In this document: positions 5,219 to 20,995 of the stretch, piece after piece
Numbering within the stretch: the stretch's first letter is position 1
Layout of the letters: each line of letters starts with the position of its first letter
Source of the DNA: Deltaproteobacteria bacterium
GTDB lineage: Bacteria; Desulfobacterota; Binatia; HRBIN30; JACQVA1
Assembly (NCBI GenBank): GCA_016178705.1
Contig: JACOST010000005.1
Span: 62,001-126,000, forward strand
Reading direction: 5' to 3'
DNA length: 64,000 nucleotides
Translations under genes and position numbers: made by a program
Notes under the pieces: model-generated
The model's database searches: none
What the model was told of the DNA's origin: nothing
What the model saw: the letters and a program-made list of their open reading frames with translations, nothing else

Positions 5219-7720
5219 CTAGAAATCGTTCTGATCAACCACGTCGATCGTCAATCGGGTCGTTTGTTGAGCCTCGGAATCAACCCCCGGCGATGTCGCG
5301 GTCACGAGCGCAGTGCAACGCGCTGGCGAGTTGGCTGAGGCCGCGTGAAAGCCATCCTTGCTCAACGTCAGGTTGACAAACTGGTGCGCGCGCGACCTGG
5401 GCGGGCGCCCGGCAATTGTGGTGCCCAAGGTCCCCAAAACGAAGGGACCGTTCTCAAGCATGCCTGACGGACAGGTCCCGTCTTGGATCGTGATGCTGAT
5501 CTCACGAGTCGGCTGGGGCGTGCCAACACCACTTTTCGCCGTGGTAACGTCAAGCGAAACAATAGCAGGCAGACTGTCCCAGCCTCGCAGAATCGTCGCA
5601 CGTATTGAGTTGAGGCTCCTAAGGACGAACCGGGTCTGCGTCGCCACCGATGGGACCGTGCCGTCGAGCACGTTGAGCTCCACACTTACGACATTGTTCT
5701 CCGGTGTCGGCTCTGTCACGTCTTGCGGTTCTGCGTGAACGCTGAACGTGAGCGTGCAGCGCTGGGGGATTTCTTTGGTCGCGTTGGGGAAGGCAGTTCG
5801 GGTCACGTGGATGCTGACACTATCGTTCGGAGATTGCGCAACGGTTCCAGCCGGGCAGTCTCCGTCGCTGCTCACCAGCCGAATCGTGTGCCCGCTCGGC
5901 AGTGGACCGGCGCCATCCCGCACCACTAGGCGGAGGTCCTTGTTGACCTCTGCACGCGTCGCCGTGAGTTGGATTGCAATCGGCATCCTGATTGACGAGA
6001 GCACCGCATCATAGACGAGCGACCAGGTACAGTTGGCCTGGCACCCGTCGCCGTCCACCGTATTGCCGTCGTCGCACGCCTCGTTCCCTTCGACTCGCCC
6101 GTTGCCGCATAGCTCGGTGCGACAGCTCGAGTCGCAACCGTCGCCGTTGACGGTGTTGCCGTCGTCACACTCTTCGGTGAGGCCGAGCACGCCGTCGCCG
6201 CAGCCGACGCGGACGCACACGGAGTTGCAGCCGTCGTCTTCGATCGCGTTGCCGTCGTCACACTGCTCGATCCCGGTGCGGACCACGGCGTCACCGCACG
6301 TATTCAGCGTGCAGTTGCTCTTGCACCCGTCGTGATCATCGTTGTTGCCGTCGTCGCATTCCTCACCCGCGGTCACAACGCCGTTGCCGCATCGCGTCAC
6401 CGTGCAGTTGGCATCGCAGCCGTCGGCGTCGGTCAGGTTACCGTCGTCGCACTCTTCTCCAGGGTCGACACTGCCACTACCGCAGTCACCGTCCTGATAG
6501 CGAACAAGCACCCAATCGCCGATCCCAGACCCAAGCCTCGATGTTCCGCCCGCGACGAGCTTGCCATCGGGCTGCTGCACGAGGGCGGTGGGCCAGTCCC
6601 AGTCGGTTCCGATGTTCGTTGTCATCACGCCATCGCTGCCATACAACGAGTCCCAGTTGCCGTCGGCCGTATAGCGGGAGAGACGGAAACTCGTATCGCG
6701 CGGGGTCAAGACGCTTGCAGACGTTCCAAGAACCGCAAAAGTTCCATTGGCCCGCCGCACCAACGCGTGGCCACCGCTCACAAAATTTGCGCTCGAAACA
6801 CCGCCCGCCCCGAAGGTCGTGTCGAGCGTTCCATCCGTGTTGTAGCGTTGCAGGTACCCTCCAACTCCCGACTCAGGTCCGAGTCCTACCAACTTGCCAT
6901 CCGGTTGCAGCACCAAATCCTCGATTCCGTTCGCAATCGATCTTACGATTCCGACGCGGCCAAATGTGTAGTCGCGGCGGCCAGCCGACGTCAGACGTTC
7001 GAGCGAGGAGGTACACCTTTTGGCGTCGCAAGAGGTTCCGGCTACGACGATTCGGCCATCGGGCTGGGCGACAATCGTCTCCGCATAGTCATTCAATCCA
7101 ATCTGGGTAAGGACGATTCCGCCTCTACCGAAGGATCGGTCTAGGCTGCCGTCTGGATTGTAGCGCACGACGCCAAACCTGAATCGCTTGGCAGGGGACA
7201 ATGCATATCCGGCCGCCAGCAGTTTGCCATCGGGTTGCAGCGCCAGAGTGGTCACATATTCCGCCTGACTTGTAATCGGCGTGACGACAACGCCGTTACT
7301 GCCAAACGTCGAGTCCAAGGTCCCATCGGGGTTGCAGCGAACGAGGGCAAAGTCTTGGTCAGTCTGACTTTTCCCTAGGGCCCCACCCGCGACGAGCTTG
7401 CCGTCCGGCTGAAGCACGAGTGCGCTCGCGAAGCCTCCATAGACTGGCGAACTGGGCAAGATCGCAAGCCCATTTGTGCCGAACGTCGTATCTACGCTGC
7501 CGTCCGCGTTGTAGCGACCAAGCGCAGTCCCTTCAGCCGTCGACCCGACCGCGACCACCTTGCCGTCGGGTTGAACGACAAGGGCTGCAATCCAGCCCGA
7601 TGTACCGCGAACGATCCCACCGTTGCCGAAGGTTGGGTCCAGGTCGCCCGCTGCCGCCCACGCGACCGCCGGCACAGCCAGCGTCAAGGAGATGAGTACC
7701 GCAGCGCTTCGTCGCCTCAT
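5219..7720 (-). CDS. Secreted delta-60 repeat protein with five myxobacterial Cys-rich repeats
   Basis: An 833-residue protein starting at the ATG at 7720, preceded by GGAGGGGGC; an ATG at 7738 is in frame but lacks a ribosome site. Residues 1-25 are a signal peptide (MRRRSAAVLISLTLAVPAVA). About seven delta-60 repeats follow (ALVVQPDGK...RYNADGSVDTTFG), a beta-propeller-like array. Next come five Cys-rich units of the DUF4215/myxo_disulf type, each with CGxG...EECDDGN...DGC...C. The C-terminus holds two copies of a ~110-residue domain marked by DGDCPAGT/DGTCPSG and a later RCT, the last ending VVDQNDF. The same ending closes the protein at 42395-43801. It is probably exported and surface-located; ligand unknown. 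It is flanked on both sides by TCACGA palindromes. Confidence 0.85.
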   Translation of the reverse strand: MRRRSAAVLISLTLAVPAVAWAAAGDLDPTFGNGGIVRGTSGWIAALVVQPDGKVVAVGSTAEGTALGRYNADGSVDTTFGTNGLAILPSSPVYGGFASALVLQPDGKLVAGGALGKSQTDQDFALVRCNPDGTLDSTFGSNGVVVTPITSQAEYVTTLALQPDGKLLAAGYALSPAKRFRFGVVRYNPDGSLDRSFGRGGIVLTQIGLNDYAETIVAQPDGRIVVAGTSCDAKRCTSSLERLTSAGRRDYTFGRVGIVRSIANGIEDLVLQPDGKLVGLGPESGVGGYLQRYNTDGTLDTTFGAGGVSSANFVSGGHALVRRANGTFAVLGTSASVLTPRDTSFRLSRYTADGNWDSLYGSDGVMTTNIGTDWDWPTALVQQPDGKLVAGGTSRLGSGIGDWVLVRYQDGDCGSGSVDPGEECDDGNLTDADGCDANCTVTRCGNGVVTAGEECDDGNNDDHDGCKSNCTLNTCGDAVVRTGIEQCDDGNAIEDDGCNSVCVRVGCGDGVLGLTEECDDGNTVNGDGCDSSCRTELCGNGRVEGNEACDDGNTVDGDGCQANCTWSLVYDAVLSSIRMPIAIQLTATRAEVNKDLRLVVRDGAGPLPSGHTIRLVSSDGDCPAGTVAQSPNDSVSIHVTRTAFPNATKEIPQRCTLTFSVHAEPQDVTEPTPENNVVSVELNVLDGTVPSVATQTRFVLRSLNSIRATILRGWDSLPAIVSLDVTTAKSGVGTPQPTREISITIQDGTCPSGMLENGPFVLGTLGTTIAGRPPRSRAHQFVNLTLSKDGFHAASANSPARCTALVTATSPGVDSEAQQTTRLTIDVVDQNDF

Positions 7721-7827
7721 TGCCCCCTCCTGCCGCATGCGAAGCGGCTTTCGCCTGTTGGCCTCCGACTACTGAACGAACGATGTCGTCAATAGCACGG
7801 GCTGAAACGCGCTGGCAAACACAAATG

Positions 7828-7949: not shown

Positions 7950-8915
7950 TCACCCCTCCGCTGCCTCCAGCAACTCGACTACGCGGGCTGAATACTCCCC
8001 GGCGCTGGGCGCGGGCGATCCTGATCGCACCGACTCGACAAACGCCGCGGCGGCGAGCGCCAGCGGCTCTTCGTCACCTCCGGCGATGACTTCACTGGGC
8101 TTGCAGTCAGAAGTTGGGATAACGTTGCCTTGCACGCTCGCCGGATCGGCGACGGCGTAGTCGAAGAACGTCAGCTTGCGCTGGCCGAAGCGGCCTTCGA
8201 AGTGCCACATGCCTCTCGAGCCAACGGCGACGACGCGCGCGGCTTTCACCGGCGACAGCCAGCTCAAGTACACATGCGCCGACACGCCGTCGCTCAACCG
8301 GATCGTCGCCACCGCCATGTCGGCGATCTTTGGTTGGATGTAACTGAACTGTTCGACACGAATCGTCGCAACATCCGTCGGTACTAGGTAGCGCAGGATA
8401 GCCAGATCGTGCGGCGCGGAGTTCCACCACACGTTCGAGTCGCGCCGAATGCGACCCATCCCCAATCGTTCGAATGAGAGATGGTACAGGCGACCGAGCC
8501 GGCCGGTGGTGATCCACTCTTTCGCGCGCCGCACCAGCGGGTCGTAGAGAAAGGTCTCGTCGACAAACAGCGTGACGCTGTGCGCAGCGGCGAGGGTCAC
8601 GAGTTCACGCGCCTCGACCGCACGCAGCGCCAGCGGCTTCTCGACCCAGCAATGTTTCCCCGCGCGCAACGCCATGCGCGCCAGCTCGAAGTGCGTCGCT
8701 GGCGGCGTGGCGACCGCCACCGCGGTCACTTCCGGGTCAGCACACAGCGCGGCGGCGTCGGCGCAGGCGCGCAGGTTGTCGCCCACCGCGCGTACGCGCG
8801 CCACATCGCCGTCGCAGACTGCCTCGACACGGAGCCCCGCCGTATTGCGAAAGGTTCGCAGCAGCTTTTCGCCCCAGTAGCCCAGCCCAATCAATCCGAT
8901 CGCCACGTCACTCAC
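7950..8915 (-). CDS. Gfo/Idh/MocA-family NAD(P)-dependent sugar oxidoreductase
   Basis: A 321-residue protein. The N-terminal Rossmann fold has GLIGLGYWGEKLLRTF (GxGxxG-type) near residue 10. The family signature EKPLAL near residue 95 carries the conserved lysine of the active site. The C-terminal half is the usual alpha/beta substrate domain. It is the last gene of the minus-strand aminosugar cluster and follows a DegT-type aminotransferase and a GT2 gene. An oxidoreductase plus DegT aminotransferase pair is typical of 3-amino-sugar synthesis (WbpB/WbpE, or GnnA/GnnB, which makes the diamino sugar of some lipid A molecules). I infer that this enzyme oxidises the 3-OH of a nucleotide sugar; the substrate is not shown by sequence. 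Confidence 0.8.
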   Translation of the reverse strand: MSDVAIGLIGLGYWGEKLLRTFRNTAGLRVEAVCDGDVARVRAVGDNLRACADAAALCADPEVTAVAVATPPATHFELARMALRAGKHCWVEKPLALRAVEARELVTLAAAHSVTLFVDETFLYDPLVRRAKEWITTGRLGRLYHLSFERLGMGRIRRDSNVWWNSAPHDLAILRYLVPTDVATIRVEQFSYIQPKIADMAVATIRLSDGVSAHVYLSWLSPVKAARVVAVGSRGMWHFEGRFGQRKLTFFDYAVADPASVQGNVIPTSDCKPSEVIAGGDEEPLALAAAAFVESVRSGSPAPSAGEYSARVVELLEAAEG

Positions 8916-8959
8916 TGCGACGCTCCTTCGGCCCGCGTTAGCCTTGATCTGACATGAAC

Positions 8960-9094
8960 TTCACCACCGAGAACGCAGAGATCGCAGAGGGAGAGTCGGC
9001 ACGAGAGTATTCGAGCACTTTCCTAAACCCATTGGCAATGGACTTTCGCTTTGCTCCTCCTTGGCTCGGTGCTCTCGGTGTGCTCTGTGGTGAA
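8960..9094. repeat. Inverted repeat of the CACCACAGAG / CTCTGTGGTG type
   Basis: The left arm at 8960-8990 begins TTCACCACCGAGAACGCAGA; the right arm at 9065-9094 is GCTCGGTGCTCTCGGTGTGC followed by TCTGTGGTGAA. They are inverted copies with a period of about 9-11 bases (GAGAACGCAGAG). This occupies the 184-base gap inside the cluster between the GT2 and oxidoreductase genes. No gene is visible in it. Confidence 0.65.
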
Positions 9095-9099
9095 TCCGT

Positions 9100-10029
9100 T
9101 CATATCGCTTCACGGACATACTCGCCGCGAACTCGGTAGACACCGATGCGTTGCGCGCGATTGAAGCGGCGCAAGTTCCACCAGTTCATCAGCGCGACGC
9201 TGGCTAACAGCAGCGCAATCAACGCTCCACCGGGCGCGGCTCGCCGCACCGCGACCGTCGCGACAGCGGCCGCAACGAACGTCAGCACGCCGAAGGCCGC
9301 CTCGAACAGCCTTGGGTGCGTGAGAATGAAGCGCAGCGCCAGCACGTCACGCAGCACGATCACCGTGCGGCTGATGCCGTAGTGCGACACGCCGTGCTGA
9401 CGGCGTCGATCGTTCACCGGCACCTCCGCAACCTCGTGCGCGCGCACGCCGAGAATCGCGGGCAGAAAACGGTGCAAGCCGGACGGCAGATGGAGGTCGC
9501 CCAACACCTCACGGTCGTACGCTTTCAAGCCACACCCGTTGTCGTGCACCGGCAGGCGCGTCACCGCCGCGATCAATCTATTGGCAATCATGGACGGCAG
9601 CACGCGCAGCAGCGTGCTCTCCTGGCGCTGCTGGCGCCAGCCGGTGACGACTCGCACTTCACCGTGCAGCGCGGCGAGCAAGCGCGGGATGTCGTGGGGA
9701 TCATTCTGCCCGTCGCCATCAAGGGTAACGACGCGGTCGCCACGGGCCGCGTGGAAGCCCGCCGACAGCGCGGCCGCTTCGCCGAAGTTGCCGTCGAGAT
9801 CGAGGACGCGCAGGCGCGGCTTCTCGGCATTCAATGCACACAACTCGGCGCGCAACTCAGTGAGCGTGCCGTCGCGGCTGCCGTCGTTGACGAAGATGAT
9901 CTCGAAGTCGGAGGTCATCGCACTCACCACTGCGCAAATTTCGCGACACAGCAGTCCCGCATTGCCTGCCTCGTTGAACACCGGCACCACCACCGACAAC
10001 GCCGGCAACGCCAAATGACCCGCGCTCAT
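9100..10029 (-). CDS. Family 2 glycosyltransferase, polyprenyl-phosphate sugar synthase (ArnC/DPM1-like)
   Basis: A 309-residue protein. The GT-A catalytic domain shows LSVVVPVFNEAGN, the metal-site motifs FVNDGSRDGT and LDGDGQNDPHDIPRLL, and GNFGEAAALSAGFHAARGD, all as in ArnC and dolichol-phosphate mannose synthases. Two hydrophobic C-terminal segments (about residues 245-285) anchor it in the membrane. It would transfer a sugar from a nucleotide to undecaprenyl phosphate. The true ArnC of this cluster is at 17652-18614, so this is a second, parallel enzyme, probably for a different sugar. Its start overlaps the aminotransferase stop by four bases, showing tight coupling to that gene. Confidence 0.85.
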   Translation of the reverse strand: MSAGHLALPALSVVVPVFNEAGNAGLLCREICAVVSAMTSDFEIIFVNDGSRDGTLTELRAELCALNAEKPRLRVLDLDGNFGEAAALSAGFHAARGDRVVTLDGDGQNDPHDIPRLLAALHGEVRVVTGWRQQRQESTLLRVLPSMIANRLIAAVTRLPVHDNGCGLKAYDREVLGDLHLPSGLHRFLPAILGVRAHEVAEVPVNDRRRQHGVSHYGISRTVIVLRDVLALRFILTHPRLFEAAFGVLTFVAAAVATVAVRRAAPGGALIALLLASVALMNWWNLRRFNRAQRIGVYRVRGEYVREAI

Positions 10030-11135
10030 CGGCGGAAGAACGCCACCACCGCGTCAGCCACCCGCTCGACTTCGGCGTCGGTGAGATCGGGAAACACCGG
10101 CAACGACAGAATCTCGCCCGCGAGTTGCTCCGCGCGGGGTAGCGCCGGCCCTTCGCCGTAGGCGCGCAGCCACGCCACCTGGCGGTGCAACGGCACCGGA
10201 TAGTGAATGCCGGTCTCGATCTGCGCGCGCTTCAAATGCGCGGCAAGCGCGTCGCGCTGCGGCGTGCGGATCACGTACTGGTGGTAGACGTGCACTTCGC
10301 CCGGCCGCTCTACCGGAACACCGACGCCCAACGGCGCAAACCGTTCGCTGTAAAACGCCGCGATGGCGCGCCGGCGTTGATTGCGCGTGTCGAGATGGCG
10401 CAGTTTCACCCGCAACACGGCGGCCTGCGCCTCGTCGAGCCGGTAGTTGCCGCCATAGATGACGTGATGATTCTTCCGTTCCTGGCCGTGGGTCTGCAGC
10501 AGACGCAGGCGCGTGACGATCGCATCGTCCGCGGTGGTCACGAACCCCGCATCGCCGTATGCGCCGAGGTTCTTCACCACGCCGGCGCTGAAGCAGCCGA
10601 CGGCGCCGAAGCTGCCGACGCGCCGCCCGTCGCGCGCGGCACCGTGCGCGTGCGATCCGTCCTCGATCACCGCGATGCCGCGCACCCGGGCCAGATCCAG
10701 CAATGGCTGCAAGCGCAGCGGCGCGCCGTAGAGGTGAATCGCCATCACCGCGCGTGTCCGCGGCGTCAGCGCGCGCGCGACCTGCTCGACATCGGGTCCG
10801 TAACCGTCGGCTTCCACGTCCACCACGACCGGCTGCGCGCCGGTGAATCGGATCGCTTCGACCGCGGCGATGAACCCGTTGGCGTGGACGATGACTTCGT
10901 CGCCGGCGCCGATCCCCAACGCCGCGACACCAAGGGCGAGAGCTTCGGTACCCGACGAAGTTCCCACCGCGTGCGGCACGCCAACATAGGCCGCGATCTC
11001 CTGTTCGAAGGCGCGCGTGTTGGGGCCCTTGAGCAAATGCATCTCCGCCAGCATCGCCGACCAGGCCGCGGCAATCTCGGTCGCCAACAGCGCGTGCTCG
11101 CGCTTCAGGTCCAGGAGAGGAATGGTTGTGCTCAT
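10026..11135 (-). CDS. DegT/DnrJ/EryC1/StrS-family sugar aminotransferase
   Basis: A 369-residue PLP enzyme. The Schiff-base lysine is Lys188 in FSAGVVKNLGAYGDAG, and Glu158-Asp159 (AVIEDGSHAHG) provides the pyridine-binding acid. The KNLGAYGDAG context and the late motif GIHYPVPLHRQ are typical of 3-aminotransferases such as QdtB, DesV, WbpE or GnnB. Classical ArnB has a different context after the lysine. It sits where ArnB would be expected in an arn operon, but sequence favours a 3-keto substrate made by the neighbouring Gfo/Idh oxidoreductase. It could still have taken over the ArnB role; if not, ArnB is elsewhere or missing. Confidence 0.85.
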   Translation of the reverse strand: MSTTIPLLDLKREHALLATEIAAAWSAMLAEMHLLKGPNTRAFEQEIAAYVGVPHAVGTSSGTEALALGVAALGIGAGDEVIVHANGFIAAVEAIRFTGAQPVVVDVEADGYGPDVEQVARALTPRTRAVMAIHLYGAPLRLQPLLDLARVRGIAVIEDGSHAHGAARDGRRVGSFGAVGCFSAGVVKNLGAYGDAGFVTTADDAIVTRLRLLQTHGQERKNHHVIYGGNYRLDEAQAAVLRVKLRHLDTRNQRRRAIAAFYSERFAPLGVGVPVERPGEVHVYHQYVIRTPQRDALAAHLKRAQIETGIHYPVPLHRQVAWLRAYGEGPALPRAEQLAGEILSLPVFPDLTDAEVERVADAVVAFFRR

Positions 11136-11176
11136 CCGATTGGCGGTGCGGTCCGCAACATGCTGGCAATGGGTCC

Positions 11177-11251
11177 GTCATACCGGCGAAAGCCGGTATC
11201 CAGCCGGGGGCTTGGGGCGCGATCCTGGATTCCGGCTTTCGCCGGAATGAC
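11177..11251. repeat. Palindromic repeat, GTCATACCGGCGAAAGCCGG type
   Basis: GTCATACCGGCGAAAGCCGG continues with TATCCAG, and after about 20 bases the inverse CTGGATTCCGGCTTTCGCCG then GAATGAC. This is the widespread GTCATTCCGGCGAAAGCCGG-type intergenic repeat. The 219-base gap between the aminotransferase and GT39 genes holds nothing else recognisable. Confidence 0.75.
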
Positions 11252-11354
11252 GAGTGGAGATGTCGCTCGACTTTTGGTGCAACGCGCCCCAGCCTGTGCC
11301 GGCTTGGCGTTCTTGGCGACTCGACGGTGAAGTTCTCTTCGCATCAAAGTTCGT

Positions 11355-13124
11355 TCAGCCATCAGCGCGCTTGCGCACCAAAACGAGGCGTTGCTCGTCG
11401 CCCTCTTCGACCGCGGCCGGCAGCGGCACGCGTTCGTAGAGATCGCGCGGCGCCGCCGGCAACTGCTCCCACTCGCGACGAGTCATCAGTAGGTAGCGCG
11501 GCGCCGCCGCCGAAAGATCCTTCCCATACACTCCAATGTGGCCGCCCCAATAGAAGGCCGCTTCATACTCAAAGGTCCGGTAGAAGAAAAGTGGAGTCTG
11601 CGTGCCGATCACCGCGCGCACCGCAGGCATGAAGGCACGATAGGTGAGATGACCCGCAATCGCCGGCATCACAACTTGCGATGTCAGCACCGCGCCGGCG
11701 CACTGGATCAGCAACAGCGCGACGACCACCGGCGGCCACGCCCGCGCCGCCAGCGCGCGCGCCAGCCACCATGCCGCAGCAGCCGCGACCCCGAGACAGC
11801 CGAGACTCACTAGCCACTGGCCGCGCAGTGCGGCCGCGATCCACGTGCCGTACGATCCGGCCTCAGTTCCAAAGCGCGCCGCAACCCACTCGACTAGCGG
11901 CATACCGAGCGCGGCGAAAATCGTCAGCGCGATGAGCGCGCCGATCAATCCGGCAAGCGTTAGAGCGAGCCCCCGCAGCACGATACGCCACCATCCCGGC
12001 ATCACATCGGTCGCACCCGAGCGCACAACATCGGCGACCCACGAACCCAGCAACAGGCCGAGCGCGGGATACAGCGCCAGCAGGTAGACGCTGCGCTTGC
12101 TGACGGCCAGCGAGTAGAGCGCAAAGACGATCACGATCCACAGCAGCATGTAGACGCGCGGGTCGCGGCTCGTCCATTCGGCGCGCGCACGCCACCACGC
12201 CGTCACCGCACCTGGTAGCAGCAACGTCCACGGTAGGAATCCCGCCGCCAGACTCCACAACAAATAGAAAGGTCCGTGGCGGTGGCCGCCTTCGAAGTCG
12301 TTGGCATCGAAGAGGCGAAACACGTTTTCGTTCAACAGTTGCTTGCCGACGAACGCGAAGCCGCCGACCCACATCGCCAGCAGGTACCACAGGCCGGCGA
12401 TGCAGGTTACTGCCGTCAATCCGCGCAGCAGCCGCAAGCGACGCAGCGGTTCGACGTCGCGCTGCACGGCGCAACTTGCGCCGATCAACAACGCCGGCAA
12501 CGCCACGCCCACGGGGCCTTTCGCCAACACCGCGAACGCCATCCCACCATAGAACGGCAGCAGCCAGCCCGGGCGGCCGTCGCGGCGCGCGAAGAACAAG
12601 TACGAACAGAACGCGACCACCAGGCCGAAGGTCAACGCCATGTCGACACGCGCGCCGGTGGCCGCGCGTTGCCACTCGAAGCTGGTCAGCGTGATGGTCG
12701 CCGCGCACAACCCGGCTCCGGCGCCCCACAGCGCGACGCCGGTGGCGTATGTCACCAACCCGCCCGCCAGCGACAGAGCTGCCGAGGGCAACCGAATGCT
12801 CCACTCGTCAGTGTCGCCGTGGATGACCGCGGTGAGTGCCGCGAGCCAATGAAACAACGGCGGCTTCGACGGGATCTCGCTGCCGCTCGGACCATCGCGG
12901 CGCGGAAGGATCCAGCCGCCGTCATGCGTCATCTGCCACACCACCAACGCCTCGCGCGCTTCACCGTGGGTGTGGAACGGATGCGCGCCCAGCCCCCACA
13001 GTTGCAGCAGCCACCACAAGCCGATGAGCAGCGCGGCGCCGCCCACTATCAGGAGCGGGGAGCGGCTCGGCTCCGCGCTCGGCCGCGCCGACTCGCCGAC
13101 AGCCGGCATCACGTCGTCGGTCAT
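11355..13124 (-). CDS. Family 39 membrane glycosyltransferase (ArnT/PMT-like), second copy in cluster
   Basis: A 589-residue multi-pass protein with about a dozen hydrophobic segments. The N-terminal loop, THGEAREALVVWQM then SGSEIPSKPPLFHWLAAL, matches the GT39/ArnT catalytic loop in layout (acidic residue, later KPPL...WL), but the usual DEARY signature is GEARE. It therefore belongs to the ArnT superfamily without being a standard ArnT. Its start overlaps the stop of arnT by four bases. With the second GT2 gene it would form a second donor-synthase plus transferase pair, moving another sugar from undecaprenyl phosphate onto lipid A, protein or a glycan. The acceptor is unknown. Confidence 0.8.
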   Translation of the reverse strand: MTDDVMPAVGESARPSAEPSRSPLLIVGGAALLIGLWWLLQLWGLGAHPFHTHGEAREALVVWQMTHDGGWILPRRDGPSGSEIPSKPPLFHWLAALTAVIHGDTDEWSIRLPSAALSLAGGLVTYATGVALWGAGAGLCAATITLTSFEWQRAATGARVDMALTFGLVVAFCSYLFFARRDGRPGWLLPFYGGMAFAVLAKGPVGVALPALLIGASCAVQRDVEPLRRLRLLRGLTAVTCIAGLWYLLAMWVGGFAFVGKQLLNENVFRLFDANDFEGGHRHGPFYLLWSLAAGFLPWTLLLPGAVTAWWRARAEWTSRDPRVYMLLWIVIVFALYSLAVSKRSVYLLALYPALGLLLGSWVADVVRSGATDVMPGWWRIVLRGLALTLAGLIGALIALTIFAALGMPLVEWVAARFGTEAGSYGTWIAAALRGQWLVSLGCLGVAAAAAWWLARALAARAWPPVVVALLLIQCAGAVLTSQVVMPAIAGHLTYRAFMPAVRAVIGTQTPLFFYRTFEYEAAFYWGGHIGVYGKDLSAAAPRYLLMTRREWEQLPAAPRDLYERVPLPAAVEEGDEQRLVLVRKRADG

Positions 13125-14785
13125 GACAACGGGTGGTTCACGACCACAACCTTCTTGCCTTCGGCCGCAATCTCAGTCGGCGGCGAGACCAGCTGCGGCT
13201 TCAATGTTTCCAACTCCGTACGATTGATGACGAGAAAGAGTCGTATCGGCGAGGCCCAGGCCTGCAACAAGCGATCGTCTTCGCGCCAAAAGAACGCGCG
13301 CTGATCGCCCTGCTCGCTGCCAAACGTCAGCTCGCCGCGCCCGCCAACCTGCACCACGCGACGCTCGGTGTAGAACGGCATGCCCTGCACGTAGTGATGA
13401 TAGATCACGATCTGATCGTCGGGACCCGCGTGGGCGTGAATCACACGGGCGAGTCCACGGTAGCTATTGGTCACATCGCGCCCGGCAATCGCCGCGCACA
13501 AGAGGAGCGACCATCCGACCGCGACCGCCACTAGCGCGCGCTGCGGCGTGGGCGCGCGCCGCGCCAGCCCGCCAGCCACCACCATCACCACACCGCCGAC
13601 ACCGAGCGAGGGGAGGATCCGCGGCACGATCGGGTCCGCGTGCAGCAACGCCGCGACGCCCCCGCCAATCACCATGATCCACCCGAGGTACGTAAAGACC
13701 ATCCCCATCCGGCGGCCGAGCGGTACGTCCTCGGCTAACGCGACTTGCAACGCGCGCGCCGTCAGCAGCGCCAGCGGCGGAAACGCCGGCAGAATGTAGG
13801 TGATCAGCTTCGAGGCCGATAAGCTGAAGAACCCAATCACGACACTCGCCCACAACACGCAGAACCAGGTGCCGTCCGACCACGTCGTCACGCGCGGCAG
13901 CGCCCGCCAGCGGTGCGGCAACAACGCGAGCGCCAAACTCCACGGCATCAACCCGAGCACCACGAACGGGAGAAAAAACCACCTCGACTCCTGATGCTCA
14001 TCCGGTGAGACGAACCGCTTCACATGTTGATCCATGATGAAGAAGTTCAGAAACTCCGAGTTGCGAGTGCTCACCAAGACGAACCAGGGTAACGCCACCA
14101 GGGCGAACAATCCGATCCCGATCGGATCGAGCAGCGGTACAATTGCACGCCAATCGCGCTGAGTGATCAGGAAGGCGACGACGATTCCACCGCTCAGCAC
14201 GACAGCCACCGGCCCTTTGGTGAGGACGCCGAGCGCCACCGCGACATACATCAGGCGATAGAATCGCGGCCGCCGCGCGGCGTCGTGGTAGCCGAACCAG
14301 AAGCACACCAGCGTCGCGGTCAAGCACGCCATCAGCGTGGCATCGAGAGTGAGGGTCTGTCCCAACGCAAAGAACAGCGGTGAGGTCGCCAACACCACCA
14401 CGCCGACCAACGTCGCCCATCGATCGTAGATGCGCCGAGCGATGATCCACGTGAGCGCGAGCGTCAGCAACGCCGACGCGACGGGCACGACGCGCGCCAC
14501 CCAGTCGGTGATGCCGAAGATGGTGAACGTCAGCATCGTCAGCCAGTACACCAGCGGCGGCTTCTCGAAGTACTTGACGAAGTTCAGCGTCGGCGTCACC
14601 CAATCGTGCCGCACCAGCATCTCGCGGGCGATCTCGGCGTAGCGCGCTTCGTCGGGTTCGGCGAGCGCGCCGAAAGCGAGCGAGAAGGTGTAGGCCACCA
14701 CCACCGCAGCCGCGAACACGAGTGTTACCCACGACGGAATCGCTCCCGCGGCTTCATCGAGAGCCGGGGCCGGTACAGCGGTCAT
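13121..14785 (-). CDS. arnT: Undecaprenyl-phosphate-sugar transferase ArnT (lipid A 4-amino-4-deoxy-L-arabinose transferase-like)
   Basis: A 554-residue integral membrane protein. The ArnT signature is clear: AEPDEARYAEIAREMLVRHD followed by VTPTLNFVKYFEKPPLVYWL, containing the Asp-Glu pair essential in this family. About twelve hydrophobic segments follow, with a periplasmic C-terminal domain. The frame is open far upstream, but the ATG at 14785 overlaps the arnD stop by four bases and gives a normal N-terminus (MTAVPAPALDEAAG). In the known pathway ArnT moves L-Ara4N from its undecaprenyl carrier to lipid A phosphates on the periplasmic side, conferring cationic peptide resistance. Context (arnC, arnA, arnD upstream) supports that role. 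Confidence 0.85.
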   Translation of the reverse strand: MTAVPAPALDEAAGAIPSWVTLVFAAAVVVAYTFSLAFGALAEPDEARYAEIAREMLVRHDWVTPTLNFVKYFEKPPLVYWLTMLTFTIFGITDWVARVVPVASALLTLALTWIIARRIYDRWATLVGVVVLATSPLFFALGQTLTLDATLMACLTATLVCFWFGYHDAARRPRFYRLMYVAVALGVLTKGPVAVVLSGGIVVAFLITQRDWRAIVPLLDPIGIGLFALVALPWFVLVSTRNSEFLNFFIMDQHVKRFVSPDEHQESRWFFLPFVVLGLMPWSLALALLPHRWRALPRVTTWSDGTWFCVLWASVVIGFFSLSASKLITYILPAFPPLALLTARALQVALAEDVPLGRRMGMVFTYLGWIMVIGGGVAALLHADPIVPRILPSLGVGGVVMVVAGGLARRAPTPQRALVAVAVGWSLLLCAAIAGRDVTNSYRGLARVIHAHAGPDDQIVIYHHYVQGMPFYTERRVVQVGGRGELTFGSEQGDQRAFFWREDDRLLQAWASPIRLFLVINRTELETLKPQLVSPPTEIAAEGKKVVVVNHPLS

Positions 14786-15669
14786 TGTTGGGTCGCAACC
14801 GTTCCGTGCCGGCCGGCGAGCGGGCGCGCGACGAGGTCGTGGATCGGCAACTCGGGGGCGCGCAGCTGCTTCGCCTCCGCGTCTAGGCGCACGAACTGGA
14901 CGTCGCGCTTGACCGCGGTGAGCAGCGCCCTGAACAAGTCGAGGTGCGGCATCCCCTCCATCTCCGCATGAATCGTGTGGACGTTGAGGCCCGCGTGCAC
15001 GCATCCCAAATAGTGACGCACCAGTTCGGGAGTCGTGGTCGCGACTTCGCCGTAGGTTTCATCCAGCGTCGGCCAGGTACTCGGGATCTCCGGCGTCGCA
15101 AAGACATGGCCGTCGACGCGCGGCCGGTACGGCGCCGCGCCGCGCGTGCAACTGTGATAGAGCAGCGCAGCTTCATCGAAGCAGGTCAGGCTGTTCGCCG
15201 TGCATTGCCATCCGGGCGCGGCGAACGAACGCGCCGGGTGACCGAGAATCTCTGCGTAGACATCGCAGCCGCGCCGAAACTCGGCGCGCACCGCAGCCAG
15301 CGGAAGGCGGGCGAGACGATCGTGCCAATAGACGTGATCGTAGCCGTGGACCCCGACCTCGTGTCCGGCCGCCTCCACTGCGCGCATGATCTCGGGGAAC
15401 GCGCGCGCGATCTGCGGCCCCGGCAGCAACGTGCCGTACAGCACCGTACGCCAGCCGTACATACCGACCGCGTTGGTGCGGCGCATCTTGCGTACAAACC
15501 CGGGATGGAACACCCGCCGAATGGCGCGCCCGGAGTGATCCGGACCGCACGAGATGAAGAACGACGCGCGCACGTCGAGGCGCTCGAACAGCGCCAACAG
15601 CGCGGGCACTCCGCGCTGCATGCCGACGTGCGTGTCGATATCAACCTTGAGAGCCAGTCGAGCGGACAC
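14782..15669 (-). CDS. arnD: ArnD-like undecaprenyl-phosphate 4-formamido-L-arabinose deformylase
   Basis: A 295-residue polysaccharide-deacetylase-fold protein. The metal-binding acid lies in ALKVDIDTHVGM, followed by GVPALLALFERLDVRASFF and then CGPDHSGRAI, RTNAVGMYGW and AGHEVGVHGYDHVYWHDRL. These are distinctive ArnD features rather than generic NodB ones. ArnD removes the formyl group from undecaprenyl-phosphate-L-Ara4FN so that ArnT can use it. The gene lies between the decarboxylase gene and arnT, as in the enterobacterial order arnA-arnD-arnT. The 52-base gap to the gene upstream has no visible signal. Confidence 0.9.
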   Translation of the reverse strand: MSARLALKVDIDTHVGMQRGVPALLALFERLDVRASFFISCGPDHSGRAIRRVFHPGFVRKMRRTNAVGMYGWRTVLYGTLLPGPQIARAFPEIMRAVEAAGHEVGVHGYDHVYWHDRLARLPLAAVRAEFRRGCDVYAEILGHPARSFAAPGWQCTANSLTCFDEAALLYHSCTRGAAPYRPRVDGHVFATPEIPSTWPTLDETYGEVATTTPELVRHYLGCVHAGLNVHTIHAEMEGMPHLDLFRALLTAVKRDVQFVRLDAEAKQLRAPELPIHDLVARPLAGRHGTVATQQ

Positions 15670-15721
15670 GATTCAGTTTTCGATGTGCGATGCGCGAGGC
15701 TTGATTGCTACCGCCGGGGCA

Positions 15722-16681
15722 TCAGGTCTGCGTCGTGCGGAACCACTCGATGGTTTTGCGCAAGCCATCGGCCAGCGTGGTCTCCGCCTTCACGCCGAGC
15801 ACCTCGTGCATCTTGGTGTTATCGGGCACCCGGCGCGGGATGTCCTCGTAACTGGTGCCGTAGACCGACTCCTGCGTAACGAACTTGATGGTCGACGACG
15901 AGCGGCCGATCGCGATCATCGTCTCGGCCAATTCCAGGATTGTGGTCTCGACCGCGGTGCCAATGTTGAACACGTCGCCTTCGGTGTTGGGGGCGGTGCC
16001 GGCTGCAATGGTGGCCTGGACCGCGTCGTCGACGTAGGTGAAGCAGCGCGTCTGCTTGCCGTCGCCGATCACCGTCAGCGGCTCGTTGCGCAGCACCTGC
16101 CCCATGAAGATGGTGATGATGCGGCCGACGTCGAGGCGGTCGAGGCGCGGACCGTAGACGTTGAAGTAGCGCGTGATCGTCACCGGCAACCCCATCTTGT
16201 GATAGGCGAAGCAGAAGTGTTCGCCAACCGCCTTCGAGGTCGAGTAGCACCAGCGATCGATGCGGGTCGACCCGAGCAAGCGGTCGTCATCCTCGCGCCA
16301 CGGCACTTTCGGATTGCGCCCGTAGACTTCCGAGGTCGAGCCGAACACCACCTTCTTGCCGTGCTTGAACGCCAGCTTCAGAACGTTCTGCGTGCCGTTC
16401 ACGTTGACGTTGAGCACTTCGTAGGGATCGCCGACGTAGTACTCGACGCCGACCACCGCCGCGAGGTGGTAGACGAGATCGGCGCGGGCAATCAGTCCTT
16501 CGAGGATCTCGACGTTGAAGATGCTGTCGCGGATGTAGTGAAAGCCCGGCTTGCCCATCAGGTGACGCACTTTGGCGACGGTGCCGGTGTCGAGAATGCT
16601 GACATCGTCGCCGCGGGCGAGAAAGGCTTCGGACAAATGTGAGCCGACGAAGCCGCCGCCCCCGGTAATGAGAATTTTCAT
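15722..16681 (-). CDS. UDP-glucuronate decarboxylase, separate ArnA C-domain homologue
   Basis: A 319-residue short-chain dehydrogenase. It has the glycine motif ITGGGGFVGSHL at the N-terminus and the Tyr146-xxx-Lys150 pair in WCYSTSK. Ser117-Glu118 in GSTSEVYG corresponds to the catalytic Ser-Glu of the ArnA decarboxylase domain. Arg283/284 in YEDIPRRVPD aligns with the key ArnA arginine (Arg619 in E. coli). It would oxidise and decarboxylate UDP-glucuronic acid to UDP-4-keto-pentose, the first step to L-Ara4N. In enterobacteria this domain is fused to the formyltransferase; here it is a separate gene overlapping it by four bases. A UDP-xylose synthase role is the main alternative. Confidence 0.85.
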   Translation of the reverse strand: MKILITGGGGFVGSHLSEAFLARGDDVSILDTGTVAKVRHLMGKPGFHYIRDSIFNVEILEGLIARADLVYHLAAVVGVEYYVGDPYEVLNVNVNGTQNVLKLAFKHGKKVVFGSTSEVYGRNPKVPWREDDDRLLGSTRIDRWCYSTSKAVGEHFCFAYHKMGLPVTITRYFNVYGPRLDRLDVGRIITIFMGQVLRNEPLTVIGDGKQTRCFTYVDDAVQATIAAGTAPNTEGDVFNIGTAVETTILELAETMIAIGRSSSTIKFVTQESVYGTSYEDIPRRVPDNTKMHEVLGVKAETTLADGLRKTIEWFRTTQT

Positions 16682-17631
16682 GTCAGCAGCGCTCCTTCGG
16701 TAATGTCGTAGCGGCGCGCCCCATCGCTCGCCGAGTGCTCGTGTGCTTCGCTCTCCAACTGCACGCGGGTCAGCCGCAGCACCCCGCCGCCGGTTTGGAC
16801 CACAATCCCGCCGTGCGCGCCAGCCTCGACCGCCAGCACTTGTCCGGGGCGCGGCACCGCGCCACCGCGGTCGACGGCCGGCGCTTCAACGCGCTGCGCC
16901 TCCCAAACGAACAGTTTGCGCCCGCGCCAGATGCCGAAGGCGCCGGGATAGGGGTGGGTTACCGCGCGCACGAGATTGCGGATCGTGGCGGCGTCCGCGC
17001 CCCACACGATGCGGCCATCGTCGGGCTTGCGGCCGCCGAAGTAGCTGGCCGCACGATGGTCTTGTGGGATGCGCGGGGCGCGGCCGTCGCGCAGCAACGG
17101 GTAGGTGTCGCGCATCAACACGGCCGCCGCCTCGGTGAGCTTGCGAAACAGCGTCAGGGCAGTGTCGTCGTCGCCGATCGGCACGGCGCGTTGCGCGACG
17201 ATGTCACCGCGATCCGGTTTCACCTCCATATAATGAAGGGTCACACCGGTCTCGCGCTCGCCGTGGATCAACACCCAGTTGACCGGACAGCGGCCGCGGT
17301 AGCGCGGCAGCAGCGAGCCGTGCAGATTGAGCGCCCCGCGCGGCGCCAGCGCCAGCAACTCGGCGCCCAGCAGTTTGCGATAGTAGAAGGAGAAGATGAA
17401 ATCCGGCGCCCAGCCGCGTACGCGCGCGATCCACTCGGGCGCGTTGACATTGTCGGGCGCGAACACCGGGATGCCGTGCGACGCGGCGAGCACGCGCGCC
17501 GAGCGGAACCAGACTTCTTCGCCGGGATCGTCATCGTGGGTAAACACGGCCGCCACCGTGGCGCCGCCTCGCAGTAGTTCCTCCAGGCAAACGTAGCCGA
17601 TGTCGTGATAGGCGAAGACTACCGCGCGCAT
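16678..17631 (-). CDS. UDP-4-amino-4-deoxy-L-arabinose formyltransferase, separate ArnA N-domain homologue
   Basis: A 317-residue protein. The N-terminal formyltransferase domain starts MRAVVFAYHDIG and contains LNLHGSLLPRYRGR with Asn102 and His104, plus Asp140 in EVKPDRGDI. These three catalytic residues fall at the same residue numbers as in E. coli ArnA. A C-terminal OB-like formyltransferase domain follows (PGAFGIWRGRKLFVWEA). The frame is open to 18069, but the ATG at 17631 gives the ArnA N-terminus directly. It uses 10-formyl-tetrahydrofolate to formylate UDP-L-Ara4N. The stand-alone length and a coupled decarboxylase gene show that ArnA is split here. Confidence 0.9.
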   Translation of the reverse strand: MRAVVFAYHDIGYVCLEELLRGGATVAAVFTHDDDPGEEVWFRSARVLAASHGIPVFAPDNVNAPEWIARVRGWAPDFIFSFYYRKLLGAELLALAPRGALNLHGSLLPRYRGRCPVNWVLIHGERETGVTLHYMEVKPDRGDIVAQRAVPIGDDDTALTLFRKLTEAAAVLMRDTYPLLRDGRAPRIPQDHRAASYFGGRKPDDGRIVWGADAATIRNLVRAVTHPYPGAFGIWRGRKLFVWEAQRVEAPAVDRGGAVPRPGQVLAVEAGAHGGIVVQTGGGVLRLTRVQLESEAHEHSASDGARRYDITEGALLT

Positions 17632-17651
17632 GGCATCATCACTCACAATCG

Positions 17652-18614
17652 TTAGAGCCGATGAATCGTGCGGATCCGATAGGTCGGACGGCGGCGCACT
17701 TCGAGATAAATTCGTCCGACGTATTCGCCAACCAGTCCCACCGCGAAAATCAGCACGCCGATGAACACGAACAGAATGGCGAACAGCGTGAACACGCCCT
17801 CGCTTTCCGGCCCGACGAAGAAGCGGCGGATTAGCAGGAACACACCGAAGCCGACGCCGGCGAAGGAGACAATCAATCCCGCCAGACTCACGATCTGGAT
17901 CGGCAACAGCGAAAAGCCGGTCATCAAATCGAACGACAGGCGCATGAGCTTGAGCAGCCCGTACTTCGACGTGCCGCTGAAGCGGTCGGCATGCCCGACC
18001 TCGATCTCCGCCGTGCGCTTGGCGATCGAGTTGGCGAGCGCCGGGATGAAACTCGATCGCTCGTCGCAATCGATGATCTGACGCACCACCGCGCGCCGAT
18101 AGGCGCGCAGCATGCAGCCGTAGTCCTTCATTTTGACGCCGACCGTGCGCGAGGTCAGTTCGTTGATCGCGCGCGACGCCAGTTTGCGGAAGGTCGGGTC
18201 CTGACGCGCCTCCCGCCAGCCACCAACGACCTCGAACCCCTCGTCGATCTTCGCCACCAGCCGAGGAATTTCTTCGGGCGGATTCTGCAGGTCGCCGTCG
18301 AGCGTGACGATGATCTCGCCGCGCGCGGCGGCAAAGCCGGCGAGCACAGCGGCATGCTGGCCGAAGTTGCGCGTCAGCTCGATGATGCCGACGTGCGCAT
18401 CGCTCGCGCTGATGCGCGTGAGCGCCTCGAGCGAACCGTCGGAGCTGCCGTCATCGACGTACCAGATCTCGTACGACCGCCCGAGTTCGCGCATCGACTG
18501 CACCAGCCGAGTGTGCAGCGTCTCGAGGTTCGCCACCTCATTGTAGATCGGGATCACCACCGACACGTCGATCGCGGCGGGCGTCGTCTCGGGAGGTGCG
18601 TCCATGACATCCAT
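17652..18614 (-). CDS. arnC: ArnC-like undecaprenyl-phosphate 4-formamido-L-arabinose transferase
   Basis: From the ATG at 18614 the protein is 320 residues, close to E. coli ArnC (322). A GTG at 18641 with AAAGGA upstream, and an ATG at 18605, are alternatives. The GT2 domain has VSVVIPIYNEVANLETL, WYVDDGSSDGS, RNFGQHAAVLAGFAAARGE and TLDGDLQNPPEEIPRL; the GQH and QNPPEEIP forms are ArnC-like. Two C-terminal membrane segments (roughly residues 235-300) precede a basic tail. It would load formyl-L-Ara4N onto undecaprenyl phosphate at the inner face of the inner membrane. It is the first gene of the minus-strand cluster, 20 bases before the formyltransferase gene. Confidence 0.9.
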   Translation of the reverse strand: MDVMDAPPETTPAAIDVSVVIPIYNEVANLETLHTRLVQSMRELGRSYEIWYVDDGSSDGSLEALTRISASDAHVGIIELTRNFGQHAAVLAGFAAARGEIIVTLDGDLQNPPEEIPRLVAKIDEGFEVVGGWREARQDPTFRKLASRAINELTSRTVGVKMKDYGCMLRAYRRAVVRQIIDCDERSSFIPALANSIAKRTAEIEVGHADRFSGTSKYGLLKLMRLSFDLMTGFSLLPIQIVSLAGLIVSFAGVGFGVFLLIRRFFVGPESEGVFTLFAILFVFIGVLIFAVGLVGEYVGRIYLEVRRRPTYRIRTIHRL

Positions 18615-18721: not shown

Positions 18722-20995
18722 TTGCGGCCGTTATCACCAGCCGCGTTGCGGCTCACATTCCACCAATCGGCTCGCGCCGCGCGCCCAGGCATCCTGACCG
18801 CGCTCGTCGTGGTGGCCGTTGCCGGCTGCGCGCCGGTGCACGCGCGCAACCTGCCCGCGCATCCGTCCACGACGCCAGCGTCATCGTCAGCCACACTGAC
18901 CATTCACGAGCCGGTGGGTATGGCGCGCACGAGTTGGCCGGTAAGCACCGGCGTGCCGTTTCCTCGCGGCGTTCTACGCGAGGCTACGACGATCGCGGTG
19001 AAGACGAGCAAGGGCAGCGCGCTCCCGGTCCAGACTCGCGTGTTGAGTCGGTGGGACGATGGCAGCGTGCGCTGGTTGCTCGCGGACGTTGCCGTCACCA
19101 TCGCGGCGCACGACACCGCGAAGCTGACCGTCACGGCCAACGGAGCAGCTTCACCGGCGTCGAGATCGCGAATGCAGGTCGTCGAAGGCAGCGACGGCGT
19201 GGCCATCGACACTGGTCCGTTGCAGTTCACCGTGCCGCGAACGACCTTCGCGATCCTTGACGACATCCGTTTGCACGGACACCCATTGCGCGCCGGTCCG
19301 TTGCGCGCGTTCATGACGCTCGATCAACGAATCGAACCGCGGCCACCGCGTGCCGTCACCGTACGCGAGAACGGTCCGTTGCGCGCGCAAATCGAAATGC
19401 GCGGACAACTCGCGCCCGGCTTCGACTACTTGGTCCGCGTCCATGCGTACGCCGGTCAGCCGTTCGTGCGCATCTTCTTCACCTTCGTCGCCACCGGACC
19501 AGCTGAAACTACCGCCGTGCGTCAACTCGCCATCACGTCAGCGCTGCCTGCATCGACCTATCGACTCGGCCTCGAACATGCACCCAGCACCGGGCGTGTC
19601 CCCAAGGCGGGCGTCAAGTTGATCCAGCTCGACAACCAAGTCTTCCGCCTCAACGGCAAGCGGCACCAGGGCCACGCGGCAGGCTGGGTCGAAGCCAGCG
19701 GAGCGTCCGGCGGCATGGGCATCGCCAGCCGTTTCTTTTGGCAGGAGTACCCGCAGAGTTTCGAAGTCATGCCCACGACGCTCACCTACAATATGTGGGC
19801 GCCGAGCGCCGTGCCGGCGCAAATCGGCGTCGGCGCGGCGAAGACCCATGAGTTCGTCGTCAACTTCTTCGATACAATGCCGCCTGCGGAGACAGCCGCA
19901 GCGCTCGCCGAGCCGCTGACCGCGCAGATCGATCCGCTGTGGAGCGCCGCGACCGCGGCCTTGCCGAACGCGATCGCACCCGGCAAGGATACCGACGCCT
20001 TTCTCCATCGACTCAACAACGCCCTGCCGGACGTTGAATCCCACACCGCCGCGGAGCGATGGGACGAAGCGGCGCACGGCGATTGCCCGCCCGCCGGGAG
20101 CGAGCGTGTACGCATCGGCGCCTTCGGCATGCTCAACTGGGGCGATTGGAACTACCCCGGGCTGCACGACACCACGAAGGGCTGCGATGCGTGGGGCAAC
20201 CTCGAGTACGATCTGACGCAAGTCGCCGCGCTCGCGTTCGCCGCCACCGGTGCCGCGACCTACCACGAGTTGATGACCGCCGCCGCGCGCCACTTCATGG
20301 ATGTCGACGTCATCCACGCCCAGCCGCAGCAGCCGAAGTGGATCGGCATGAATCATCCCAAGAACCCGCTGCACTTCAGCTTCGCGCACAGCGGTGTCGA
20401 TCTCGGCCACACGTGGACGGAAGGTCTGATCTCCTACTTCTACTTGACCGGTGACGACCGCGCACTCGACACCGCGCGCGGCATTGCCGACTACCTCGTG
20501 CGCCGCCTGCAAGCCGGCGTCGTGCGCGGCAATCCGCGCCAATGGGGCTGGCCGGTGATCGCGTTGCTGGCGGTATCGCAGGCCACCGGCGAGCCGCGCT
20601 ACCTCACGGCCGCGCGTGACTACGCGCAGCGCGGGATGAAAGCGTTCGCTCCGACCGACCTCAGCAGCTGGAAGATCGGCATCCTCGCCGATGCGTTGGC
20701 CAACACGCACGCGGCGACACGCGATGCCGACATCGAACAGTGGCTGCGGACCTACGCAGGCGCTGTCGCAGCGAAACCTGACGGCGATCTACGCTTGTAC
20801 CCCGCCGTCGCCTACGTCGCGGCGCTGACACACGACGCTCGACTGGCGGCCAGCGCCCGCGCCGCGGCTGATCGCATCCAGTTCGGCAGTTGGGCCAAGC
20901 CCTTTACGATCGCCGGCCGCACCGGTTTTCGGATCTTGTCGTTGTTAGAAGCAGAAAGCGCAAAGTCGAAAGCAGAAAGCCAGATGCATAGATGA
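18722..20995 (+). CDS. Predicted lipoprotein, exo-rhamnogalacturonan-lyase-like (PcRGLX/YetA type)
   Basis: A 757-residue protein with a likely TTG start, divergent from arnC by about 100 bases. The N-terminus has a hydrophobic segment ending VVAVAGCAPV, a lipobox with the acylated cysteine. The N-terminal beta domain (WPVSTGVPFPRGVL, then QTRVLSRWDDGSVRWLLAD) and a C-terminal helical toroid-like region (NWGDWNYPG, LEYDLTQVAALAFAATG, LGHTWTEGLISYFYLTGD) resemble PcRGLX/YetA-type polysaccharide lyases. That assignment is from pattern memory and is moderate. It could act on a glycan at the outer membrane. The last dozen residues are encoded by AAAGC-rich repeats, so the C-terminus may be extended. 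Confidence 0.55.
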   Translation: MRPLSPAALRLTFHQSARAARPGILTALVVVAVAGCAPVHARNLPAHPSTTPASSSATLTIHEPVGMARTSWPVSTGVPFPRGVLREATTIAVKTSKGSALPVQTRVLSRWDDGSVRWLLADVAVTIAAHDTAKLTVTANGAASPASRSRMQVVEGSDGVAIDTGPLQFTVPRTTFAILDDIRLHGHPLRAGPLRAFMTLDQRIEPRPPRAVTVRENGPLRAQIEMRGQLAPGFDYLVRVHAYAGQPFVRIFFTFVATGPAETTAVRQLAITSALPASTYRLGLEHAPSTGRVPKAGVKLIQLDNQVFRLNGKRHQGHAAGWVEASGASGGMGIASRFFWQEYPQSFEVMPTTLTYNMWAPSAVPAQIGVGAAKTHEFVVNFFDTMPPAETAAALAEPLTAQIDPLWSAATAALPNAIAPGKDTDAFLHRLNNALPDVESHTAAERWDEAAHGDCPPAGSERVRIGAFGMLNWGDWNYPGLHDTTKGCDAWGNLEYDLTQVAALAFAATGAATYHELMTAAARHFMDVDVIHAQPQQPKWIGMNHPKNPLHFSFAHSGVDLGHTWTEGLISYFYLTGDDRALDTARGIADYLVRRLQAGVVRGNPRQWGWPVIALLAVSQATGEPRYLTAARDYAQRGMKAFAPTDLSSWKIGILADALANTHAATRDADIEQWLRTYAGAVAAKPDGDLRLYPAVAYVAALTHDARLAASARAAADRIQFGSWAKPFTIAGRTGFRILSLLEAESAKSKAESQMHR

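Follow-up and report, generated by a model that had tools for sequence, protein, structure and literature searches.

The window is a stretch of 64,000 nucleotides of contig C5 of genome G000 (Deltaproteobacteria bacterium, GCA_016178705.1; 6.1 Mb, 98% complete), which appears to belong to Binatia/Candidatus Binatota. Positions 7950–18614 carry nine minus-strand open reading frames (ORFs), in the order arnC, arnAf, arnAd, arnD, gt39a, gt39b, degT, gt2b and gfo. The first five form the Arn core, named after the system that attaches 4-amino-4-deoxy-L-arabinose (Ara4N) to lipid A; gt39b, degT, gt2b and gfo form a second set, here termed the cassette. The cluster probably encodes two donor pathways, one for Ara4N and one for a polyprenyl-phosphate-linked 3-amino-3-deoxy sugar. 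Four-base ATGA overlaps (n = 4) join arnAf/arnAd, arnD/gt39a, gt39a/gt39b and degT/gt2b. All nine co-directional genes and the four overlaps listed in an earlier note on this DNA were recovered. Large gaps lie ahead of degT (219 bp) and gfo (184 bp), so the nine genes may form two or three transcription units. The gap ahead of degT (11136–11354) is repeat-like, with one TTCCGGCGAAAGCCGGAATCC-type element and a second, related one in inverted orientation; it looks like an insertion, because the same gap measures about 20 bp by ORF coordinates in the relative L045. The gap ahead of gfo (8916–9099) is also repeat-like, with a CACCGAGAGCACCGAG-type stretch. The identical nine-gene order is present in G001, G004, G006 and G010, and in G013 up to the contig end; the arrangement is therefore not due to chance.

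All five activities of the Arn core are represented (family scans, GT2 tree, residues). Among the NCBIfam matches of the core genes, NF005414 alone passes its strict cut-off. It is matched by arnAf (16678–17631, minus strand; 370.8 bits, cut-off 316), a stand-alone UDP-Ara4N formyltransferase that keeps N102, H104 and D140 of ArnA and has ArnA as its closest solved chains. The GT2 protein of arnC (17652–18614, minus strand), a polyprenyl-phosphate transferase of formylated Ara4N, matches the NCBIfam ArnC model at 370 bits (cut-off 529). In the GT2 tree it belongs to the E. coli ArnC part (support 91) and lies outside the GT2 clade of the cassette. The deformylase arnD (14782–15669, minus strand) matches NF011923 at 227.6 bits (cut-off 382) and Pfam Polysacc_deac_1. 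The first GT39 protein, gt39a (13121–14785, minus strand), has an Arnt_C domain (Pfam, 49 bits, above the cut-off of 26.5) and the PDE-x-RY and FEKP motifs of E. coli ArnT, and is thus a sound ArnT candidate. By domain and motif, the outcome that the earlier note named as a refutation, both GT39 proteins outside ArnT, did not arise. Although G004, G006 and G010 (genus g5) otherwise retain the nine-gene cluster, their gene at the position of arnC (L045 8224, L046 9246, L049 11197) has only 43–46% identity to the window arnC, and the GT2 tree places it outside the ArnC part.

The least certain assignment of the core is arnAd (15722–16681, minus strand), a stand-alone ArnA-type UDP-glucuronic acid (UDP-GlcA) decarboxylase with a putative UDP-4-keto-pentose product. 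Its matches to NF008872 (173.5 bits, cut-off 294) and to ArnA (153.8 bits) are both below cut-off. Residues T432/S433/E434, Y463/K467 and R619 of ArnA are kept. Residue comparison thus bears out the earlier statement that the formyltransferase residues and the Ser-Glu/Arg 'triad' of the decarboxylase are retained on separate genes. The triad does not single out ArnA, because human UXS1 has the same S-E and R. With E. coli ArnA, arnAd shares a stretch R-W-x-Y-x-x-x-K, and no such stretch was found in the row of UXS1; overall, residue comparison does not separate arnAd from UXS families. Among solved structures, those nearest to arnAd are UXS1 (181 bits), some other short-chain dehydrogenases/reductases and ArnA (139 bits). 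In an ArnA-decarboxylase/UXS tree, drawn without rows from L127, L128, L172, L222 and L225, the rows of E. coli ArnA and human UXS1 are unplaced, on end branches of 10 and 4.8, and the tree assigns arnAd to neither family.

A formyltransferase match of at least about 288 bits is present in 44 of the 98 genomes searched, own genome included. Surroundings were fetched for 37 of the 43 others (G042, G060, G075, G080, G091 and G094 left out) and are referred to as the class loci. The split core arnC, arnAf, arnAd and arnD is complete in 32/37. Division of ArnA into two genes, which the earlier note had treated as special, is accordingly common, and the separate halves have their own NCBIfam models; it was dropped as a notable point. 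L053, L055 and L068 (family f5) have arnC, arnAf and arnD, and the DNA fetched around these genes yielded no close arnAd. The absence of UDP-glucose dehydrogenase and lipid A genes, which the earlier note named as refuting, was not seen either: four of five nucleotide-sugar dehydrogenase matches in G000 exceed the cut-off and are candidates for UDP-GlcA supply, and LpxC is present (278 bits), consistent with lipid A.

The product of degT (10026–11135, minus strand) is a sugar aminotransferase of the 3-amino type by solved relatives, tree and motif. Its solved relatives are 7b0d (328 bits; labelled glutamine--scyllo-inositol transaminase), 2oga (288 bits; taken here to be DesV), QdtB (250 bits), 7n63 (242 bits), WbpE (232 bits) and ArnB (164 bits). 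DesV, QdtB and WbpE act at C3. In a quick, unbootstrapped tree, seventeen DegT proteins of the cassette group in a single clade (SH-aLRT 99), on the same side as DesV, QdtB and 7b0d. Across a split with support 100 lie ArnB, Per and the DegT proteins linked to Arn. The tree was drawn without the duplicate loci L126, L127, L128, L172 and L225 and without matches below 140 bits or 200 residues. The motif KNLxxxGD[AG]G is present in 17/17 cassette DegT proteins, as in three references of the 3-amino side. The form EGG is present in ArnB, Per, 4lc3 and 13 of 14 linked ArnB proteins, the linked ArnB of L053 giving no motif readout. The own-genome protein L039, on the ArnB side of the tree, has GDGG. 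Simple identity of degT with ArnB was rejected on tree placement and motif; replacement of ArnB by degT is weighed below.

The gene gt2b (9100–10029, minus strand) encodes a second polyprenyl-phosphate sugar synthase with a GT2 Pfam domain. A tree of the GT2 proteins, as suggested by the earlier note, was drawn without L126, L127, L128, L172, L225 and L222 and without matches below 130 bits or 170 residues; the L154 fragment and the weak L220 match are absent from it. Nineteen cassette GT2 proteins form one clade (99; quick tree, no bootstrap) apart from ArnC. The DegT and GT2 trees show the same three sub-groups, namely L141/L142/L155, the far phylum members, and L213 together with the window's own order. 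By this agreement of the two trees, the cassette DegT and GT2 appear to be inherited as a unit.

The product of gfo (7950–8915, minus strand) is a Gfo/Idh/MocA sugar dehydrogenase (Pfam; predicted model with a predicted local distance difference test score, pLDDT, of 89.4) and a putative C3 oxidase. Among solved structures ranked by sequence match, 3c1a, an oxidoreductase without a specific name, comes first (75 bits) and GnnA 7bvj fifth (62 bits). By fold, GnnA 7bvk is tied for best (Z 34.3, root-mean-square deviation (rmsd) 2.0, 292 aligned residues, 24% identity). The best 50 matches range from Z 34.5 to 31.8, with GenD2, KijD10, KanD2 and WlbA slightly below GnnA. On alphaproteobacterial plasmids of Aureimonas and Rhizobium, a DegT gene comes immediately after a Gfo homologue (32–36% identity; two of 150 matching records examined). 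The earlier view that DegT and Gfo/Idh resemble 3-amino-sugar machinery is upheld by tree, motif, solved relatives and the GnnA fold match. A second Gfo-DegT pair (34% and 44% identity to that of the cassette) is present in the own genome at L038, 4078–7147, on contig C24, which also holds a nucleotide-sugar dehydrogenase (C24:36076); this pair is perhaps a WbpB/WbpE-type O-antigen locus.

The second GT39 protein, gt39b (11355–13124, minus strand), has a full-length GT-C/ArnT fold in its predicted model (pLDDT 90.4). The model aligns to ArnT 5f15, solved with undecaprenyl phosphate, over 507 residues, the C-terminal domain included (Z 37.5, rmsd 3.7); the next family follows 10 units lower, at Z 27.4. 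No Arnt_C match was found at E ≤ 0.001 (Pfam), and the PDE and FEKP motifs of ArnT are absent; the protein is of a GE-x-RE/SKPP subtype. The Asp of VDM and the Lys of SKPP, as in ArnT, are kept. The extra GT2 and GT39 pair of the earlier note is thus present, with gt2b in its own clade and gt39b of ArnT fold. GT39 proteins of the GE-x-RE/SKPP type occur in many loci, often as the sole GT39 found at the locus; counts in the named loci are biased, as the locus search used two patterns drawn from these motifs. Tandem GT39 pairs recur, e.g. in L126 and L131–L141. In L130 to L140 the first member is LKPP-type and the second SKPP-type, and cassette matches are lacking. L129, a probably mistitled record named as a Klebsiella pneumoniae metagenome-assembled genome, has a gt39b relative (40% identity) of the sort found in these lineages.

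Beyond the earlier note, the second half of the cluster proved to be a cassette that is found elsewhere without the Arn core: DegT, GT2 and Gfo, usually with GT39, recur in genomes whose fetched DNA lacks that core. A gt39b scan of named genomes gave 79 loci, of which eight have a gfo match of at least 250 bits; gt2b is present in 8/8 of these and degT in 7/8. Three of the eight (L126, L128 and L172), and also L127, whose contig breaks off inside degT, are contigs already in the set as G014, G006, G010 and G013. Another four of the eight, L141, L142, L154 and L155, have degT, gt2b and gfo without an Arn core in their fetched DNA. Among 395 genomes of the phylum, nine, own included, have a gfo match at E ≤ 1e-60. 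At the eight places outside the own genome, degT and gt2b lie alongside in six (L213, L214, L216, L217, L218, L219); L215 has gfo with gt2b and then the contig end, and at L220 gfo is accompanied only by a weak gt2b match, with degT absent. Matches to arnAf, arnAd and arnD were found in the fetched stretches of 0/8 of these places. The stretch of L217 ends with an ArnC-like match and also holds a weak match to E. coli ArnA; an Arn core may lie beyond it. In G014 the Arn core and the cassette are on two different contigs.

A search for arnB, proposed in the earlier note, found no ArnB-clade aminotransferase in the own genome. None of its DegT proteins exceeds the ArnB cut-off of 631 bits (best 393.6 bits); among 14 control genomes, one passes. 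The best match, an unlinked 4-aminotransferase on contig C9 (G000:C9:188718–189842), is closer to ArnB than to any other solved structure. Eleven genomes were scanned with the ArnB model. A tree of 45 DegT proteins was drawn without weaker ArnB-model matches lacking a locus (e.g. in G001, G003, G012, G013 and G014) and without L099-type extra copies beyond one per genome. Linked ArnB proteins, E. coli ArnB and G012_b form one clade (99/95). A second clade (100/98) consists of the best ArnB-like DegT proteins of the cassette genomes, those of G008 and G012, and an additional copy each from G003 and G007, both of which also carry a linked ArnB. The two clades are weakly sisters (82/56). No member of the ArnB clade in this tree comes from the cassette genomes G000, G001, G004, G006, G010, G013 and G014. 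A gene for a PglC-like sugar transferase adjoins the second-clade enzyme in 9/11 genomes (1.5 kb flanks), two of which carry a linked ArnB as well; the enzyme therefore looks dedicated to another polysaccharide. Among the 37 class loci a linked ArnB-type DegT is present in 14, a cassette DegT in five, and both in none. Eighteen have neither, among them L042 with its cassette on another contig; linkage of ArnB is thus not required, and it is common for ArnB to be unlinked or borrowed. An ArnB-clade DegT is lacking in G008, as are the cassette degT and gfo. The ArnB activity of the core may come from the ArnB-like second-clade enzyme, from the cassette DegT or from a missed ArnB.

The proposed scheme builds on the gene content, conservation, clades, predicted folds and motifs observed here, and sets two pathways end to end. 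In the first, ArnAd would decarboxylate UDP-GlcA, an aminotransferase encoded elsewhere would aminate the product, ArnAf would formylate the aminated sugar, ArnC would load it onto undecaprenyl phosphate, ArnD would remove the formyl group, and gt39a (ArnT) would transfer Ara4N to lipid A. In the second, Gfo would oxidise C3 of a nucleotide sugar, with UDP-GlcNAc (UDP-N-acetylglucosamine) as the leading guess, DegT would aminate C3, and GT2b would attach the resulting 3-amino-3-deoxy sugar to undecaprenyl phosphate for periplasmic transfer by gt39b, plausibly to lipopolysaccharide (LPS). The joint absence of degT and gfo orthologues from G008 counts in favour of the scheme. The substrates, the C3 regiochemistry, the acceptors (lipid A included) and the source of ArnB activity are the parts of this scheme that we infer. 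Of the earlier suggestion that lipid A is decorated with two aminosugars, two pathways stand as the best reading, while lipid A as acceptor of the second sugar is conjectural.

Several observations weigh against two pathways. The cluster has no gene for N-acylation or formylation of the second sugar, although 3-amino products of this sort are often acylated. The fold match of gfo is tied across many sugar oxidoreductases. Glycosyltransferase genes can persist without the 3-amino enzymes, because G008 keeps gt39b and gt2b without degT and gfo orthologues, and G012 keeps gt39b alone of the cassette, beside its core; L144 has gt2b, gfo and gt39b and no degT match. Cassette GT39 proteins are not uniform, a PDE-type GT39 being beside the cassette in L216 and L218. 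In 8/8 gt39b-type rows, the window included, the PDE Asp of ArnT is replaced by G and the FEKPP Glu by S or A, and without these two residues the activity of gt39b is not assured. A catalytically dead or helper gt39b, serving gt39a in the transfer of one sugar, would fit these replacements and the recurrence of tandem GT39 pairs. It is nevertheless very improbable: the VDM Asp and SKPP Lys are kept and the GE-x-RE/SKPP type is widespread, often as sole GT39 (within the bias of the search patterns), which makes a Glu-based site just as likely.

In a single pathway, the cassette DegT would have replaced ArnB and make UDP-Ara4N, or Gfo and DegT would make a 3-amino pentose for ArnC, ArnD and ArnT. 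The mutual exclusion of linked ArnB and cassette DegT in the class loci agrees with this, as do the missing ArnB-clade member in the seven cassette genomes (not every weaker DegT match is in the tree) and the PglC-like neighbour of the nearest 4-aminotransferase. The same DegT clade nevertheless occurs without an Arn core, its members are on the 3-amino side by tree and motif, almost half of the class loci and also G008 lack both enzymes, and the own unlinked 4-aminotransferase is nearest to ArnB among solved structures; a single pathway is therefore improbable. Also unlikely is an acceptor of another kind for the cassette sugar (protein, exopolysaccharide, hopanoid or S-layer), with the cassette beside the Arn genes only through a chance event of genome history. 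Stand-alone cassettes do lie near other genes, such as those for LPG_synthase_TM proteins (as a guess, flippases) in L141, L216 and L219; no LPS genes were recognised among the listed ORFs of L141 and L216, where no LPS-directed search was made, and gt39b lacks an Arnt_C match. On the other side, the nine-gene order is kept across two families of the order, and the predicted model of gt39b aligns to ArnT through the C-terminal domain. Two donor pathways in one cluster remain the favoured explanation. More tentatively, DegT-GT2-Gfo-GT39 may be an undescribed, self-contained and transferable pathway, spread across Binatota-like and other Deltaproteobacteria-type lineages and joined in this Binatia order to the Arn operon, giving two cationic envelope sugars. 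If so, a 3-amino sugar would join the cationic decorations delivered by ArnT-like enzymes, with a defined set of four genes. A concrete puzzle is the identity of the aminotransferase that makes UDP-Ara4N in genomes that have lost the linked ArnB.

Two neighbouring ORFs flank the cluster. Just downstream of gfo (5219–7738, minus strand) is a gene for a protein of 839 residues with repeated Cys-rich 'ECDDGN' units. Divergent from arnC (18722–20995, plus strand) is a large ORF with a lipoprotein-like start, a candidate polysaccharide-active enzyme by sequence.

Among the papers listed by searches of open PubMed Central articles, no description was found of a GT2 and GT39 pair joined with 3-amination genes or fused to Arn, and no paper on the envelope chemistry of the Binatota/Binatia lineage. 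Papers that did come up deal with sponge microbiomes, antimicrobial peptides, E. coli serotypes and Hafnia O-antigens, and nothing decisive on split ArnA was among the results. The cluster resembles the lipid A Ara4N system ArnBCADT (pmrHFIJKLM) of E. coli K-12 in ArnC, both ArnA activities, ArnD, ArnT and the catalytic residues. It differs in having ArnA as two genes, ArnB outside the cluster and the DegT-GT2-Gfo-GT39 cassette appended. Stand-alone ArnA halves (NF005414; NF008872, UDP-4-keto-pentose/UDP-xylose synthase) are typical of Burkholderia and Ralstonia; the window formyltransferase is above the cut-off of its model, whereas arnAd, below cut-off, is distant from such decarboxylases. 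GnnA and GnnB, a UDP-GlcNAc 3-dehydrogenase and a 3-aminotransferase, make UDP-GlcNAc3N for the lipid A backbone. The window pair is similar in combining a Gfo/Idh protein, with GnnA among its tied top folds, and a 3-amino-type DegT, but its partners are a polyprenyl-phosphate GT2 and a GT39 rather than a backbone-building acyltransferase. Lipid A donor/transferase pairs of GT2 and GT39 type include FlmF2/NaxD/FlmK of Francisella, LgmABCD of Bordetella and RgtE/RgtA-D of Rhizobium. By analogy, the cassette would share with these a GT2-made polyprenyl-phosphate sugar and its transfer by an ArnT-like GT39; unlike them, it includes the C3-amination genes of its own sugar. Decoration by a GT2 and GT39 pair with its own sugar genes is of a known kind.

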